NCBI RefSeq assembly: GCF_000305935.1
Contig: NC_018870.1
Span: 2,632,501 to 2,696,500, forward strand
Direction: 5' to 3'
Length of the DNA stretch: 64,000 nucleotides
Source of the DNA: Thermacetogenium phaeum DSM 12270
GTDB taxonomy: Bacteria; Bacillota; DSM-12270; Thermacetogeniales; Thermacetogeniaceae
Below the pieces are notes generated by a model. It was not told the origin of the DNA. It saw only the letters and a list, made by a program, of their open reading frames with translations, and made no database searches. Position 1 is the stretch's first letter. Each line of letters starts with the position of its first letter. Position numbers and translations under genes: made by a program. Of the stretch, positions 861-51,757 are shown one piece after another.

Positions 861-1949
861 TTAATTTGTCAAGGGCTTGGGATGAAAGTTTTTGGAACAC
901 TTGCGGACCCTTTCCAGCTCCTCCGGAGTGAGGGCGCGCTCAAAGCTCCGCAGACCGGCAAGCCTGAAGCCGTGCTTGGCTCCCAGGCGGCTGATTTCCT
1001 CCACCTGAGCCACGGTGAGTTCCCGTCCCAGGGAATAATTTTCGCATCTCCCCTCCAGAGCCAGGATCATCGTCTCGGCCATGCAGGCGTATGAAGTCTT
1101 CGGGGGAAATCCGAAATTAAAATTGAATTCCACATCACCCGGAACCTCCACGACACCTCCCTCAATGACCAGAACATCAGGGCGCTCCGCAGCAACCCGC
1201 ACGGAAACATCTCGCGGCCGGGCAACATCACAGACAACCGCTCCCGGCTTCAGGTCCTCAGGCTCAATAACAGTGTCCACAGCGGAGGTAACCGTGATTA
1301 CCACATCAGCCCGGCGCAGGGCTGCTCTGGAATCGGTGGTCAGGCGGGCGGCCACCCCGGTTTCCTGAAGGATCTGATGGGCCAGGCGTTCCAGCCGCGA
1401 CCGGTTTCTGGCCACCAGCGTCAGCTGCCCGACCTCTTTGGCGAGAATTCTGGCGCAGACGCTCCCGATGGATCCGCTGGCTCCCAGCACAGCTGCCTCA
1501 GCCCGGGACAGTTCGATCCCCATCAATTCCGCAGCCTTGCGCGTGCCCTCCAGAGCCATGGCCACAGTGAAGCTGTTCCCCGAAGTAACGGCGATATTCA
1601 GATTCCTGGCCACGGTAATCCCGGCATCCCCTACCACAGAGGTCATTGCGCCCAGACCGACGATCTCCGCCCCCAGCCTTTCGGCAATTTTTCCTGCTTC
1701 AATGATGCGCCGGATGACGTATTCCGTAGGAAGCTCCAGCATCTGGCGGGAGGTCAATGGGCAGATGATAAACCATCCTTCGGTTTCCGCATAAGGGGAT
1801 CTCACCCCCCGGATCTGGGAGGCCTTATAGGCCGGAAAACGGCCGACAATCCATTCCGTCATCCGCTCCGGCAGGAGTTTGAATATTCGCAGCCTTTTGG
1901 TAATGTCCGTTATATCGATGGGGTGGATGATAAAGGCGAACCTGGTCAT
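861..1949 (-). CDS. Acyl-ACP-reductase-like NAD(P)-dependent dehydrogenase (COG5322 type)
   Basis: The 362-residue protein has a Rossmann nucleotide site GASGSIG at residues 156-162 and an upstream GLGAMTSVVGDAG segment. Its C-terminal part (SYACMAETM around Cys289, then NYSLGRELT and KHGF) follows the pattern of cyanobacterial long-chain acyl-ACP reductase (AAR), where the equivalent Cys forms the acyl-thioester. Homologues in Clostridia are often labelled shikimate dehydrogenase, but the C-terminal pattern fits AAR better. A plausible reaction is reduction of an acyl thioester to an aldehyde; the substrate is unknown. The ATG start overlaps the preceding gene by four bases (ATGA), so the two are likely coupled. 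Family placement is fairly sure; activity is inferred. Confidence 0.75.
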   Translation of the reverse strand: MTRFAFIIHPIDITDITKRLRIFKLLPERMTEWIVGRFPAYKASQIRGVRSPYAETEGWFIICPLTSRQMLELPTEYVIRRIIEAGKIAERLGAEIVGLGAMTSVVGDAGITVARNLNIAVTSGNSFTVAMALEGTRKAAELMGIELSRAEAAVLGASGSIGSVCARILAKEVGQLTLVARNRSRLERLAHQILQETGVAARLTTDSRAALRRADVVITVTSAVDTVIEPEDLKPGAVVCDVARPRDVSVRVAAERPDVLVIEGGVVEVPGDVEFNFNFGFPPKTSYACMAETMILALEGRCENYSLGRELTVAQVEEISRLGAKHGFRLAGLRSFERALTPEELERVRKCSKNFHPKPLTN

Positions 1950-2872
1950 AGAGACTGCTCCCCCTCCATATTGTTCAGGACCTCCAAGCGCGGTTTTAGC
2001 TGCAGCCGGTCGAGCAGCTCACCGTAGTCCTCAGGGGTCACCTCATCGGCCTTCTTCCCCAGAATACTGATGAGAACCCCTTCCATCACATTCGTCCCAA
2101 AGGAACGCCCTTGAAGCTCCGGGGTTGTAGTTATCAGCACGGCAACGCCGCGCTCCCGAAGCATCTCCAGATCGTCTTTGGTCACAGTGTTAGTGATGAT
2201 GATCTTCCCCGGCAGCTCCGGCGGCATATACTTTCTGATGAAATGAAAGTCACCGGCGATTATCTCATTTTCCCGGTAGTAGCTCTCATACTTCGTGGTC
2301 ACACTCTCCTGTTTTTCCCCCGTAGGGTACAAATACTTAAAAGGGAGCTGGCTGATTACGGGGAGCAGCATCCAGGCGAGCAACCTCAATGCAGCAAGAG
2401 AACGGATCGGGATAGGAATACCCATAGCAAAGATTAAATCCCCATAGGTGGTCCGGCACCCGGCTTCCCAGAGCGCCTCGGCAATCCCGAAGCGGTCAAC
2501 CCCGGAAACCACCAGGGCGCGCCTGCCGGCGAAAGTCCATCCCAGCTCATCTTGAAGATAGGTGATAACACGCCGCTCCAGGGTGTTCTTTAGTCCGCTC
2601 CCGTCCACAATGGGGGTGAGCCGGGCGGCAGAGGCAATTTTTTTCGCTTCCCTGATGGCGTAGCGCCGTCCTCCTGCTACGAGATAGAGATCGATCCCCC
2701 CCATTCCAAAGGCATCGACCTTTCCGTCCAGCTCGCGGATCATCTCGATGGCGCTGTTCATATCCCCATCCGTACCGATCCGCTCGATCAGGAACTTCTC
2801 TCCCAAGAATTCCGCTTCCACCCTGTGGTTGCGCTTGGAAGAACCAAGACTGATGCTGACAACATGCTTCAC
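1946..2872 (-). CDS. Uncharacterised protein of the clostridial 'quinate 5-dehydrogenase' family
   Basis: This 308-residue protein starts MKHVVSISLGSSKRNHRVE. It has glycine-rich segments (FGMGGIDLYLVAGGRRYAI, VVSGVDRFGIAEALWEAGC) that suggest nucleotide or phosphate binding. A hydrophobic stretch follows around IPIPIRSLAALRLLAWMLLP. The C-terminal half contains IIITNTVTKDDLEMLRERGV. Relatives next to AAR-like genes in Clostridia have been labelled quinate 5-dehydrogenase, but I see no feature proving that activity. The ATGA overlap with the AAR-like gene and the 57-base gap to the upstream regulator indicate one operon and a joint function. Function unknown. Confidence 0.6.
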   Translation of the reverse strand: MKHVVSISLGSSKRNHRVEAEFLGEKFLIERIGTDGDMNSAIEMIRELDGKVDAFGMGGIDLYLVAGGRRYAIREAKKIASAARLTPIVDGSGLKNTLERRVITYLQDELGWTFAGRRALVVSGVDRFGIAEALWEAGCRTTYGDLIFAMGIPIPIRSLAALRLLAWMLLPVISQLPFKYLYPTGEKQESVTTKYESYYRENEIIAGDFHFIRKYMPPELPGKIIITNTVTKDDLEMLRERGVAVLITTTPELQGRSFGTNVMEGVLISILGKKADEVTPEDYGELLDRLQLKPRLEVLNNMEGEQSL

Positions 2873-2929
2873 GACATCTCGCCCTCTCTTTTAATAAAAT
2901 AATCATGAGACCTACTTCCCGAGTTTTAG

Positions 2930-3460
2930 TCAATCCTTTTGTACCGACAGAATGAGATCCCGCAGGTGGCCGGGATCCACATATTTGTCCTCAGTAAGCG
3001 GCGACTCCCCCAGAACGATGCCGATGACCTCCTTGTCGAGAAGAGCTGCGCTCCAGTTGATGCGCTGCCGTGACCCGATCAGGATGACCACATCATAGGT
3101 TCTGATCTCGGCCACCAACCGCATGACTTCGTTAAACAGCTGAAGACCCGACTTTTCCTGAACAAAACGCCAGCGCTCGGCGTTGGTCATGATCAGGCTG
3201 AAGTCCACCCCTGTTTCCTTGAGCAGCGACAGGATTTCCTCTTTATTCTTAACGGGAAAACCAACGACGGCCAGGCGCGCCCCTTTTCGAACCGCACCCA
3301 GGGTTTCCAGGCGCGAAACAAAGCTCCTGTCCACTCCGAAGCGCACGGCCACCTCCTGCTGGGAAAGGCCTTCGCTGCGGAGGGACATAATCCGGGCAAC
3401 GGTACGGTTGAGCTTCTCCATGCTGATGAGCTTTTCTCCAATGCGATAAAATTCATTCAC
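2930..3460 (-). CDS. Helix-turn-helix transcriptional regulator
   Basis: Residues about 20-55 (ARIMSLRSEGLSQQEVAVRFG, then DRSFVSRLETLG) form an XRE/sigma-like helix-turn-helix. The remaining ~110 residues (LAVVGFPVKNKEEILSLLKE, VVILIGSRQRINWSAALLD) look like a small alpha/beta domain with no motif I can name. It has no AAA+ domain, so it is not a sigma-54 activator. The longest frame starts at GTG 3460. An ATG at 3421 preceded by GGAGAAAAG at good spacing is an equal or better start (163 residues). It heads the minus-strand trio and is divergent from the sigma-54-driven small gene, so it could control either or both. Confidence 0.75.
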   Translation of the reverse strand: MNEFYRIGEKLISMEKLNRTVARIMSLRSEGLSQQEVAVRFGVDRSFVSRLETLGAVRKGARLAVVGFPVKNKEEILSLLKETGVDFSLIMTNAERWRFVQEKSGLQLFNEVMRLVAEIRTYDVVILIGSRQRINWSAALLDKEVIGIVLGESPLTEDKYVDPGHLRDLILSVQKD

Positions 3461-3565: not shown

Positions 3566-3580
3566 TGGCACGCAATTTGC
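3566..3580 (+). promoter_or_regulatory. Sigma-54 (-24/-12) promoter of the small protein gene
   Basis: TGGCAC at 3566-3571, a five-base spacer GCAAT, then TTGC at 3577-3580 match the sigma-54 consensus exactly, with GG and GC 12 bases apart. It lies 65 bases upstream of the ATG at 3646. A small inverted repeat (GCACC, 7 bases, GGTGC) at 3537-3553 lies just upstream. The same promoter type precedes the related gene at 51758. Confidence 0.85.
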
Positions 3581-3645
3581 TAGATCACTTTCGTAGAGAT
3601 TGTGAAAATCAGCACATTCCACAACCGAAGAAGGAGGTAGCAATA

Positions 3646-3882
3646 ATGGCAGTACACCTGCGTTTACCGAAAAAAAACATCCACCTCAAAATAGGAGGTC
3701 CCCGTGCTGAGCGGCAGAGCGATAAGAAGAAGCAATCCGCAAAACACTCCGTAGAGAAGGTTACCGCCACCGATACCGATGCCAACAGCAAAAAAGTCAA
3801 GCTCGAGTTTCCCTACGACGATCTTGAGCTGCTCTACCAGTACACTCTCAAAGAAATGGGAATCAAAGACCCCTTTGAATGA
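3646..3882 (+). CDS. Small sigma-54-controlled protein with EFPY/LLYxY motif (paralogue 1)
   Basis: A 78-residue protein. ATG at 3646 follows a strong ribosome site GAAGGAGGT. A longer frame to 3577 would begin inside the -12 promoter element and is rejected. Residues 1-52 are basic and low in complexity (MAVHLRLPKKN, then KKKQSAKHS). The C-terminus carries LEFPYDDLELLYQYTLKEMG. The second gene at 51758-51919 encodes a 53-residue protein with the same start (MAV) and the same C-terminal pattern EFPY-x-D-x(3)-LLY-x-Y-x(2)-K. No signal peptide, membrane helix or known domain is visible. The sigma-54 promoter suggests expression under a specific signal. Function unknown. Confidence 0.8.
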   Translation: MAVHLRLPKKNIHLKIGGPRAERQSDKKKQSAKHSVEKVTATDTDANSKKVKLEFPYDDLELLYQYTLKEMGIKDPFE

Positions 3883-4272
3883 TCGGCCTTCGAAACGCGC
3901 AAGACAGGCGCGCCAATTTTCCGGAATACCGTGCCGCAGTTTCGGAAGGTCTCCGGGAAGGCGGCAAACAACACCGATTACCATAAAGGCGCCCGCTCAA
4001 TCCGGGCCGATTTAATCGCAGTAACTTCATTCCCGCAAAAACCAAAAGGGCCCGGATTTTTCGGCCGGGATTTTGTGAAATATTGCACTAATCCTTCTTC
4101 TGCAGCACAGCGGAAAAGGCTCCCGGCTATTAAACCCGCGGTTTTTGTGGTGTGCCGGAAAATGGATAAAGGGGGTGCGAAAAAGAGCGAGGTAGCAGAG
4201 CTGAGCGTCTAAATAAAACGGTTACAGCAGGCCTGTCAACATTCACAAACATTGGGAAGGGAGGTCAACCCT
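3883..4272. other. Intergenic region upstream of the formate hydrogenlyase operon
   Basis: About 390 bases with no convincing gene. A hairpin near 4051-4068 (CCCGG, nine-base loop, CCGGG) followed by ATTTTG may end the small-gene transcript. I found no sigma-54 box here, unlike enterobacterial formate hydrogenlyase operons controlled by FhlA. The operon promoter was not identified. Confidence 0.4.
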
Positions 4273-6483
4273 ATGGAAAAAATCCTCACCGTCTGCCCGT
4301 ACTGCGGGACGGGCTGCGGCCTCCACCTGGTCGTAGAAAACGGCCGCGTCACCGGTGTGGAACCGGATAAACTGCATCCTGTCAATGAAGGAGAGCTCTG
4401 CCTTAAAGGATACTTCGGCTTCGAGCACATTCACTCCGGGGATCGGCTGACAACACCTCTCCTCAAAAAGGAGGGCCGGTTCGTCCCTGTTTCCTGGGAG
4501 GAGGCTCTGGATCTGGTGGCAGCCAGGCTCACCCGGATCAAAGAAGAATCCGGCCCGGATGCCTTCGCCCTTTTCGCCTCGGCTAGAGCTACCAATGAAG
4601 AAAATTACATTGCTCAGAAGTTCGCCCGGGCGGTAATGGGCACCAATAATGTGGACCACTGCGCCCGCCTCTGACACGCCCCTACAGTCGCCGGTCTGGC
4701 GATGACCCTGGGCGGAGGAGCAATGACCAACTCCATCCCCGAAATCGGGGCGGAATCAGACTGCATTTTCATCATCGGTTCTAATACGGCCGAGTGCCAC
4801 CCCCTCATCGCCCGCCAGGTAATTCGGGCCAGGGAACGGGGGGCCAGGCTTATCGTGGCCGATCCCCGCCGAACGGAGATGGCCAATAAGGCCGATGTCT
4901 GGCTGCAGGTGCCTCCGGGGTACAACATCCCCCTGCTCAACGGGATGATCAACATCATCATCGAGGAGAAACTGCACGACGGTGACTTTATCGCCAGCTG
5001 CACCGAGGGTTTTGAAGAGATGAAACAGGCGGCGGCGGAATGGACACCCAAACGCGTGGAAGAGGTGACCGGGATTCCGGCAGAGGATCTCCGAAAAGCC
5101 GCCCGCCTCTACGCGGGAGGAAAGGCGGCGGTGATCCTATACTGCATGGGGGTTACCCAGTTCAGCTTCGGGACCGGAACAGTTGTATCACTTTCCAATC
5201 TGGCGGCGATCACAGGCAATCTCGGAAGGCCGGGGACCGGGGTAGATCCCTTAAGGGGGCAGAACAATGTCCAGGGGGCGTGCGACATGGGATGCCTCCC
5301 CAACGTCTTTCCAGGCTATTTAAGCGTTACCGCTGCCGAGAACCGCGCCCGCTTTTCCAAAGAATGGGGTGTAGAACTCCCCTCAACCGTCGGCCTGAAA
5401 GTCTCCGAGGTGCCGGAAGCAATACTGGAAGGAAAGATCCGCGCCCTCTATATCTTCGGTGAAAACCCGGTGATGAGCGATCCGGACTGCGACCACTTCC
5501 GCAAGTCACTGGAACAGCTGGACTTTCTGATCGTCCAGGACATCTTCCTTTCAGAAACTGCCCGCCTGGCAGACGTGGTCTTCCCGGCTGCCTGCTGGGG
5601 GGAGAAGGACGGCACCTTCACAAGTACGGAGCGCCGGGTGCAGCTCGTACGCAAGGCAGTGGCGCCTCCGGGAGAAGCCAGGGAGGACTGGTGGGTCTTT
5701 AAGGAGCTTGCCGGGAAAATGGGATACCGCGGCCTCGACTACCTGCATCCCCGGGAAATCTGGGAGGAGGTCCGGAGAGTGGTACCGGAGAAATTCGGCG
5801 GCATCTGCTACCGGCGCCTGAACGAACAGAGGGGCATCCACTGGCCGTGCCCGTCGGAAGACCATCCGGGAACGCCCATCCTCTACAGTGGAGGCAAGTT
5901 CTCCACACCATCCGGCAAGGCGCAACTCCGCCCGGTAATTTTCGACCCGGTGCAGGTTCCAGAGGAAAAAACCAAAGCCTTCCCCGGCGCCCTCACAGGC
6001 AGCATCAAGGAACTGCCTGATGAGGATTACCCTTTTACGCTCACAACCGGGAGAAGGGTTTATCACTATCACACCGGGACTATGACCCGCCGGGCGGAGG
6101 TCCTGAACACCATAGGGACGGAGCAGCTCATCGAAGTCAATCCGGTGGACGCTGCCAGGATGGGGATCAAGGACGGTGACTTCGTGAGGATCGCTACAAG
6201 GCGCGGCTCCATAACCGCCAAGGCTTGGGTAACCGGCCGCGTCCCGGAAAAAACCCTCTTCACATCCTTCCACTTCTGGGAAGCCAATGTCAACGAACTG
6301 ACCAACACCGCCAGGGATCCCGTAGCCGGAATCCCGGAGTACAAGGTCTGTGCAGCGCGGTTGGAGCGGGTCACCCCTGCCGAGGCGGCCAGCTCCTATA
6401 AGGAGAAAATGGAAAAGTATCGGCTCGACCTGGTACAGAAAACGAAGGAGGAACTGGAGCGGAAAGGAGGAGAGCAAAGATGA
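4273..6483 (+). CDS. fdhF: Selenocysteine formate dehydrogenase H, catalytic subunit
   Basis: This molybdopterin (bis-MGD) enzyme oxidises formate to CO2 and feeds electrons to the hydrogenase encoded downstream. The 736-residue frame is continuous only if UGA at 4672-4674 is read as selenocysteine 134, in the active-site context RL-Sec-HAPTV. A SECIS hairpin follows directly. The N-terminal [4Fe-4S] ligands are Cys8, Cys11, Cys15 and Cys43. Length and layout match E. coli FdhF (715 residues). ATG 4273 was chosen for its GGGAGG ribosome site; a TTG at 4252 is in frame but lies upstream of that site. The stop overlaps the next start (ATGA). Mo or W use is not decidable from sequence. Translation requires selA, selB, selC and selD elsewhere in the genome. 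Confidence 0.95.
4672..4703 (+). promoter_or_regulatory. SECIS element for selenocysteine insertion
   Basis: Directly after UGA, GTCGCC (4687-4692) and GGCGAT (4698-4703) pair as five Watson-Crick pairs plus one G-U around the loop GGTCT (4693-4697). The GGUCU loop and its distance from UGA resemble the E. coli fdhF element recognised by SelB. This explains the in-frame UGA as recoding and not a disruption. Confidence 0.9.
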
Positions 6484-12616: not shown

Positions 12617-13864
12617 CTAAACCACCTTTCTCTGCCCCTGGGGCACGTATAGTTGGTTGCTGCGTAGCAGAGCATCAACCACCCGCACGAGTTTACGTGC
12701 GGTCAGAACCAAAGCACGGCGATGGTGGTGAGTGGAACTCTCTTTAAACTTACGGGCATAGAACTCGGCAAACCTGGGGTCCCATTTACGCACGCTGTCG
12801 GCGGCCATTACAAAGTAATAGCGCAGGTACACATTGCCGGTTTTCGTAAGCGGCGTGTCATCGGCTTCAAACTCGCCTGACTGGTGTTTCCGCCAGGTGA
12901 GGCCGGCAAACTTGGCGACTGCCTTCTCGTTGTCGAACCGGTGGATGTCGCCGATCTCGGCGATTATTCCGGCGGTACAGACAGGCCCCATGCCCGGCAT
13001 CGACTGCAGAGTGTTCGGAAAGTGTGACAGTTCTTTCTCAATCGCCTTGTCAATACTCTTGACCTGCTGTTCCAGGGTACGGATGGTCTGCAAACTGGTG
13101 GCCAGGATCAGGTTCACCGGCTCCAGGAGGCTTCCGTGCAGCCTGTAAGCGCAGGCTGCGGCATGCTTTAAGGCCTTGGCCGTAGCTTCGGGGTTGGAGA
13201 AATGACTCTTTCCCTTCTCCATCAGGAAGTCAATTAACTCATCAAGCGGTCGTGCCGCAATCTCTTCCGGAGAAAGGAACTCGGTCAGGATCGCCTCCGA
13301 GGTGGCCCCGAAGATGTCGCTCAGCACCTTGTCCTGGCAGATGGTATTGAACTTCAGGAACAGGTTGGTCAGGAAGTAGTTCTTCTCCCGAGTGATGGTC
13401 TGGATCAGGTGGTAACGGAACCTGGTCAGCCGCTGGAGGGGCAGGTAGCGGAAGTCCACCTGGCAGCTCTCGGGCAGCCGTCCGAACCTGAGCCGGTCGG
13501 CGATCACCAGGCAGTCGAACCAGTCATCCTTTGGAATATCGACGTACTGTTTTCTGAAGTTGGCGATCACCTTGGGATTGAAGACGTACACCTGGGGGTG
13601 AAAGGAAGCCAGCAAAGGCTCACCGGCCAGGCGCATCTGCAGGTGCCAGCCATAGACAGAGGTGGACTCCATGCCGATCCGCAGGGAATCAACTTCGTTG
13701 GCGCCGCAGATCTCCACCAGGTACTTAACAAAGGACTCTGCACCCGGATCGTCGTTCTTGCAGCGAATGCGCTTGGCGATCTCCTCGCCCTCTGCGTCGA
13801 ACATCCGGGCCTTGAAATCTTTCATGCTGACATCGATACCGACAAACAGTTTCATCAGTTTCAC
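12617..13864 (-). CDS. IS110-family transposase (DEDD recombinase)
   Basis: A full-length 415-residue transposase. The N-terminal RuvC-like DEDD domain shows FVGIDVSMKDF (first Asp), GMESTSVYG (Glu) and DDWFDCLVIADRL (Asp pair). The C-terminal transposase-20 domain shows LQSMPGMGPVCTAGIIAEIG and KFAGLTWRKHQSG, with a conserved Ser expected to act in strand exchange. No frameshift or internal stop is visible, so the element could be active. ATG start at 13864 follows GGAGG in the upstream sequence. Transcription opposes the surrounding hydrogenase genes. Confidence 0.93.
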   Translation of the reverse strand: MKLMKLFVGIDVSMKDFKARMFDAEGEEIAKRIRCKNDDPGAESFVKYLVEICGANEVDSLRIGMESTSVYGWHLQMRLAGEPLLASFHPQVYVFNPKVIANFRKQYVDIPKDDWFDCLVIADRLRFGRLPESCQVDFRYLPLQRLTRFRYHLIQTITREKNYFLTNLFLKFNTICQDKVLSDIFGATSEAILTEFLSPEEIAARPLDELIDFLMEKGKSHFSNPEATAKALKHAAACAYRLHGSLLEPVNLILATSLQTIRTLEQQVKSIDKAIEKELSHFPNTLQSMPGMGPVCTAGIIAEIGDIHRFDNEKAVAKFAGLTWRKHQSGEFEADDTPLTKTGNVYLRYYFVMAADSVRKWDPRFAEFYARKFKESSTHHHRRALVLTARKLVRVVDALLRSNQLYVPQGQRKVV

Positions 13865-51400: not shown

Positions 51401-51678
51401 GCAAGAAAGAGAAGAGAGTGCGGGAACGTGAAGAAAGTAACGAAAGTCGTCAAGAACGTAACGAAATTTCGGCACCGGTGACGTAACTGCGGAAAAGATA
51501 CTTCAGGAGAACCGCAGACTGCGAGGCATTCAACGAGGCAGGAGCCCCCCGGACAACCGGTTGGACTCCCCCAATGGCGCACGCCCCTTTTGACGCAGCC
51601 TTTGCGGTCACACCGGCCGCAATAAAAGCCCGGGAAATACGCGCGCTGAAAGACAGGCCACAGCCGGGTAAGACCAAC
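51401..51678. other. Upstream region of the second sigma-54 small gene
   Basis: No gene is visible. GTAACGAAA occurs at 51437-51445 and 51458-51466, 21 bases apart (two helical turns), with a looser third copy near 51483. They lie over 200 bases upstream of the sigma-54 box, a plausible distance for an enhancer-binding activator. Confidence 0.4.
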
Positions 51679-51693: not shown

Positions 51694-51757
51694 TATAACA
51701 TATTGGTGAAAAGAATCACACGCAGCTGAAGGCTGCAGAAGAAGGAGGTTGAAGAAA

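Follow-up and report, generated by a model that had tools for sequence, protein, structure and literature searches.

The window analysed here, a stretch of 64,000 nucleotides from Thermacetogenium phaeum DSM 12270, carries two very small genes on its plus strand; P1 (3646..3882), encoding a protein of 78 amino acids, and P2 (51758..51919), encoding one of 53 amino acids. P1 was assigned to a common protein family by homologue searches, alignment and codon analysis, and P2 by homologue searches and the presence of the motif. The ribosome site of both genes, GAAGAAGGAGGT, is identical, and the frames, start codons, shared ribosome site and sigma-54 elements given in the initial annotation were all confirmed at their positions. 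The C-terminal cores of P1 (LEFPYDDLELLYQYTLKEMGIKDPFE) and P2 (YEFPYADMYLLYDYIQK) were found to be identical at 10 of 16 residues (E = 2e-5, BLASTP, single pairwise comparison). The C-terminal motif previously ascribed to the two proteins is real, but its x(3) spacing was off by one; the spelling EFPY-x-D-x(3)-LLY returned no match in a motif search, the actual pattern being EFPY-x-D-x(2)-LLY-x-Y-x(2)-K. Similarly, the basic character claimed for the N-terminal half holds for the copies of this genome but not family-wide, as several relatives are acidic there. Three paralogues are present in the genome and not two, the third, P3, being located at C1:831.2-831.4 kb on the minus strand. Members of the P1/P2/P3 type carry an EFPY-[DAY]-[DE] ... 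Y-x-Y core on the C-terminal side of a frame of 50-90 amino acids. A confident helix was predicted in two AlphaFold runs for residues 58-71 of P1 and 36-52 of P2, with the remainder disordered, suggesting that proteins of this type consist of a largely disordered tail and one conserved Tyr-rich helix (FPYDDLxLLYxY).

Perfect sigma-54 (-24/-12) promoters were found ahead of both genes, TGGCACGCAATTTGCT for P1 (3566..3581, plus strand), relatives having a -24/-12 element at the same place, and TGGCACACTTCTTGCT for P2 (51679..51694, plus strand). The pattern TGGCAY-N5-TTGCW occurs exactly twice in the 64 kb, at 3566 and 51679, compared with 0.07 expected occurrences, and two sites were seen in none of 100 shuffles. 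The whole genome (single contig, 2,939,057 bases) contains 27 sigma-54 sites versus 2 for the reversed pattern. When the homologues were inspected for the same arrangement, as had been proposed, a -24/-12 element was present ahead of every family copy except the truncated L073, being perfect in most and carrying one or two mismatches in the others; the GG-N10-GC signature of sigma-54 units lies at a similar distance ahead of the family genes. The earlier claim that each gene has its own sigma-54 promoter is thus supported at the sequence level, and the enhancer-type element common to most copies and the candidate activator, both described below, take it further. Since the copies span eight genera and several unrelated neighbourhoods, the association with sigma-54 is a property of the family and not of one locus. 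Other sigma-54 sites of the genome (G000) precede genes named by eye as those for serine hydroxymethyltransferase, alanine dehydrogenase, aldehyde dehydrogenase, a histidine ammonia-lyase-like protein and a corrinoid protein, which look like genes of amino-acid and C1 metabolism. No paper on sigma-54 in T. phaeum or on the P1, P2 and P3 loci was found in the literature.

Searches with either protein or with the alignment were run over the 20 genomes belonging to the same bacterial family (f1, apparently Thermacetogeniaceae), and 16 of these proved to have between one and four copies, counts that are not independent because many of the genomes are related MAGs. Outside f1, no convincing match was obtained among 398 genomes sampled across the phylum, and in a scan of 84,980 species (one genome each) the matches were confined to the same lineage, as far as the records carry names; the named relatives include Thermacetogenium sp. 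and Syntrophaceticus schinkii. The clostridial genomes at large, initially suggested as the search range, were therefore too wide a frame, the family being found only in Thermacetogeniaceae-type genomes. Sequence searches of Pfam, NCBIfam, PHROGs and PDB gave no family (best E 0.016, single members only), and with these chance-level matches a known protein family was rejected, as was a phage origin, the viral contigs having yielded no relative. The F, P and Y of FPY and Tyr64 are invariant in the family alignment, and E54, D58, D59 and Y66 nearly so. Two groups were resolved with moderate support in the tree, a 78-residue type, mostly ending in GI-x2-PF, and a 53-residue type starting with MAV-x-LK; the P1 orthologues form one supported branch. 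Near orthologues gave dN/dS values of 0.10-0.32 for P3 and 0.12-0.5 for P1, the sequences being short and dS saturated in distant pairs. Judged by this excess of synonymous change, the family is under purifying selection. A lack of homologues outside this genome and a lack of coding constraint, either of which had been named as speaking against a new family, were both looked for, and neither was found; many homologues within one bacterial family, no database family and dN/dS below 1 instead support P1, P2 and P3 as a previously undescribed small-protein family, restricted, as these searches indicate, to one family of syntrophic acetate-oxidising bacteria. Two irregular copies occur in genome G018, one frame-shifted in a run of A (L086 2019-2153) and one truncated at the N-terminus (L073, about 6124-6222); these could be assembly errors or decaying copies.

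The family genes lie in distinct neighbourhoods. P1 is followed by fdhA (4273..6483, plus strand), a candidate regulon member outside the small-protein family and part of a formate hydrogenlyase operon which corresponds in gene content and order to the published Tph_c26250-26370 (PMC6436200). The in-frame TGA of fdhA is codon 134 (DHCARL-U-HAPTVAG), and its product is likely a selenocysteine formate dehydrogenase; the folded stretch behind the TGA is weakly stable (z -1.4). A transposase-like gene (IS110-type by eye) lies within the operon on the minus strand, at 12617-13864. Divergent from P1, positions 861-3460 of the window hold a three-gene series encoding an HTH protein (2930..3460, minus strand), a 308-residue protein without family match and an acyl-ACP-reductase-like protein, and this series, including the HTH gene beside P1, is kept in genera g1, g6, g7 and g8. 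A conserved GTGCACA-TTTT-GTGTACA-like sequence separates it from P1. P2 is flanked by nadA and a superoxide dismutase gene. P3 adjoins a LigD-type polymerase gene (L069 7221-7400 and 7864-8781), a pairing kept in g1, g5, g6 and g7. Four genera (g2, g6, g7 and g8) keep the family yet are without formate hydrogenlyase, the small subunit of that complex being absent; a formate-hydrogenlyase-specific factor was therefore ruled out as the family-wide function.

Comparison of the upstream sequences revealed a second element carried by most copies, in which palindromes of the form T-x-CCG-N6-CGG-x-A are repeated in tandem every 19-20 bp. In the 53-residue type the element is located upstream of the promoter; in the 78-residue type it follows the stop codon at a distance of about 30-110 bases. 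In the window, it is represented by two candidate enhancers (UAS), TGCCGCAGTTTCGGAAGGTCTCCGGGAAGGCGGCA (3932..3966), downstream of the P1 stop codon, and TAACGAAATTTCGGCACCGGTGACGTAACTGCGGAA (51459..51494), upstream of P2. These are the best and second-best tandem sites of the window, with scores of 27.7 and 25.0, respectively, both higher than the best of 30 shuffled windows (24.1). The tandem score was derived from the family loci, so that scores within the family are partly circular; the window ranking and the genome scan are fairer tests, and the whole-genome scan with a fixed pattern is the stronger one. Over 19 whole genomes, the fixed pattern gave 11 matches, of which 9 adjoin family genes, and the reversed-pattern control gave 2. 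Of the two remaining matches, one, in G012, precedes a 4Fe4S/AOR operon that itself has a sigma-54 site, and the other, in G019, separates a response regulator gene from a hydrogenase-type operon. The strict pattern has no match in the window's own genome, and no clear tandem site was found at some copies, e.g., L099, L101 and L091. Looser patterns (TGCCG-N6-CGGCA with one mismatch; CCG-N6-CGG pairs) occurred above or near control levels and were too common to inform. Sigma-54 sites with single or tandem elements also lie ahead of Fe-ADH and a LarE-like gene in G012. Additionally, a MoaD-like gene in G003 (L236 1804-2225), divergent from the kinase gene introduced below, has a sigma-54 site to itself, and a tandem-type element follows its stop codon.

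A candidate for the regulator acting on these elements is a GAF/PAS histidine kinase with an NtrC-type response regulator. In G001, a family gene lies directly ahead of this pair, and seven genomes have a family gene on the same contig as the kinase, no more than about 22 kb away. Every one of the 16 genomes with the family has the kinase, versus one of the four without it (G003; Fisher 0.0035), the three kinase-less genomes being incomplete; G029, also without a family member, has a weaker relative of the kinase. Hidden family members beside the kinase were sought in G003, G002, G010 and G014, and none was found; the sigma-54 gene beside the kinase in G003 encodes a MoaD-like protein. The kinase/regulator operon has a sigma-54-type site in 10 of 10 genomes checked, several being TGGTAT variants, and tandem sites ahead of it are evident in g1, g3 and g5 but not in g6 and g7. 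In g5 and in G014, the fdhA gene of formate hydrogenlyase is divergent from this operon and has its own -24/-12 element. In the window genome, the pair is located at about 842.8-846.1 kb, 11.5 kb from P3, and is flanked by a ThiF/MoeB-like gene and by a 4Fe4S/AOR/MoaD/NuoEF-like/Fe-ADH/formate-THF ligase series. The AOR/ADH series corresponds in gene content and order to Tph_c08210-08270, and the formate hydrogenlyase and AOR/ADH clusters were both induced by ethanol/ethanolamine in published proteomes (PMC6436200), with the hydrogenlyase also being detected on H2/CO2 (PMC6895022). The article texts searched make no mention of the P1, P2 and P3 micro-proteins.

A further layer of control is suggested by sites resembling the operator of the redox repressor Rex. 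These were scored against the Rex consensus, which is of the TTGTGA-N6-TCACAA type. The site TTGTGAAAATCAGCACAT (3600..3617), matching 11 of 12 consensus positions, lies just downstream of the predicted start point of P1 and is kept in the P1 orthologues of g6, g7 and g8; a site scan located another, TTGTGAAATATTGCACTA (4073..4090), ahead of the formate hydrogenlyase operon, and a third, TGGTGAAAAGAATCACAC (51704..51721), near P2, matches at 10 of 12. Most g1, g6, g7 and g8 copies have a palindrome of this type (9-12 of 12) in a constant position immediately after the -12 element; the g2, g3 and g5 copies have none. The window genome has one rex gene. The placement of these palindromes is no more than suggestive of a redox gating of the family promoters by Rex.

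The shared tandem elements, the co-occurrence and linkage of the kinase and the Rex-like operators make the family look like micro-proteins of one alcohol/aldehyde/formate-H2 redox regulon. The overall explanation, to which a probability of about one half was assigned, is that P1 and P2 are lineage-restricted micro-proteins in a redox-energy regulon of syntrophic acetate oxidisers. Each family gene would be a single-gene sigma-54 unit, which is well supported by sequence. Pattern and linkage lead to the prediction that the NtrC-type response regulator of the kinase binds the tandem CCG-N6-CGG sites, which lie upstream of genes of the P2/P3 type and behind those of the P1 type. The family genes would in this way be switched on together with the kinase/regulator operon, the AOR operon, alcohol dehydrogenase and, in genomes that have it, formate hydrogenlyase. 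The AOR promoter of the window genome, which has no clear -24/-12 site, counts against this regulon reading. Rex would block the promoter start, a step that is moderately supported and does not extend to all genera; with such a block, full output is proposed to require both the kinase signal and a high NADH/NAD+ ratio. The conserved Tyr-rich helix would then dock on a shared partner, and the protein would act on the regulator, or on the pterin-dependent oxidoreductases under its control (AOR and formate dehydrogenases), as an adaptor or feedback modulator. An adaptor or modulator function within the regulon is favoured because docking peptides are built in this way, with a conserved Tyr-rich helix attached to a variable tail; an accessory role for the pterin enzymes would be nearly as likely. 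The adaptor or signalling role suggested in the initial annotation would be compatible with the disordered tail, the conserved helix and the regulatory-gene neighbourhood.

In the first form of the docking step, the proteins would attach to the kinase or to the NtrC-type regulator, damping or tuning its output in the style of HycA on FhlA in E. coli, with several paralogues providing several inputs. Co-regulation with and linkage to the kinase/regulator pair, including the arrangement in G001, and the presence of the kinase in every genome with the family point in this direction; no similarity to a known anti-activator was found, and the kinase occurs without the family in G003 (and as a weaker relative in G029), so that this form is put forward tentatively. 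Likewise of modest weight is the possibility that the proteins take part in the assembly or docking of the tungsten/molybdenum-pterin oxidoreductases AOR and formate dehydrogenase, or serve as a small subunit of these enzymes. It is consistent with P1 adjoining the formate dehydrogenase/hydrogenlyase operon, P3 adjoining a NuoEF-linked formate dehydrogenase, the g5 copies adjoining hydrogenlyase genes and the ThiF/MoeB- and MoaD-like genes at the regulator locus, whereas the four genera without formate hydrogenlyase and the position of P2 between nadA and the superoxide dismutase gene argue against it.

Control of the proteins by another sigma-54 activator, with an incidental linkage to the kinase/regulator pair, is unlikely, since the tandem sites are shared with the pair's own operon in several genera and the pair co-occurs with and is linked to the family. 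Nevertheless, the genome encodes 11 strong sigma-54 activator domains, which leaves 10 further strong candidates, the binding site of the regulator is a prediction, and in g6 and g7 the pair has no evident tandem sites in front of it. The frames are very short, their N-terminal parts poorly conserved and their models mostly disordered, as would be expected if they were by-products of sigma-54 transcripts (leader peptides or regulatory RNAs) and not functional proteins; the synonymous excess, the frame and C-terminal core kept across eight genera, the good ribosome sites and the two subfamilies in the tree make this highly improbable.

Returning to the regulon, a wider version of it, in which paralogous docking adaptors tie the sigma-54 two-component system and Rex to reversible alcohol/aldehyde/formate-H2 electron flow, one subfamily being activated from an enhancer downstream of the gene, is offered as a speculation that is rather doubtful as a whole. 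The choice of syntrophic acetate oxidisers between making and oxidising acetate, and the tuning of their electron flow near the thermodynamic limit, are poorly understood. The proposed circuit is compact and testable, with a single kinase/regulator pair and its one candidate binding site, a single redox repressor and a few shared targets, including a conserved but unannotated protein family. Because genes this small are easily lost from annotation and proteomics, the consistent promoters of this family make it a useful place to start.

Several known systems resemble parts of this arrangement. Rex regulons share the TTGTGA-N6-TCACAA-type sites found at the family genes and the single rex gene of the genome; the site described here differs in lying directly behind a sigma-54 promoter and in being absent from part of the family. 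The AtoS/AtoC and NtrB/NtrC pairs have the same kinase/regulator domain plan, and the best NCBIfam matches were AtoS and NtrC/AtoC, all below cut-off, but the neighbourhood and presumed signal of the present pair are not the same. In E. coli, formate hydrogenlyase is sigma-54-activated through FhlA, and a small co-regulated protein, HycA, adjoins the operon. The likeness to this system is a functional analogy only; the family described here matches nothing in Pfam or NCBIfam and occurs in genera without hydrogenlyase as well, and its candidate regulator is predicted to be a phosphorylated response regulator, unlike FhlA, whose site type is cited in PMC6615313. AorR of Clostridium, a sigma-54 activator over aldehyde oxidoreductase genes, controls aor-moaD through sites of the type TGT-N10-12-ACA (PMC6615313), and a text search of that paper gave no mention of such micro-proteins. 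The conserved site found at the present loci is the CCG-N6-CGG tandem, and its candidate regulator is a two-component kinase with an NtrC-type regulator. Since AorR uses TGT-N10-12-ACA sites, the circuit described here appears to be distinct from that of AorR, though related in theme.
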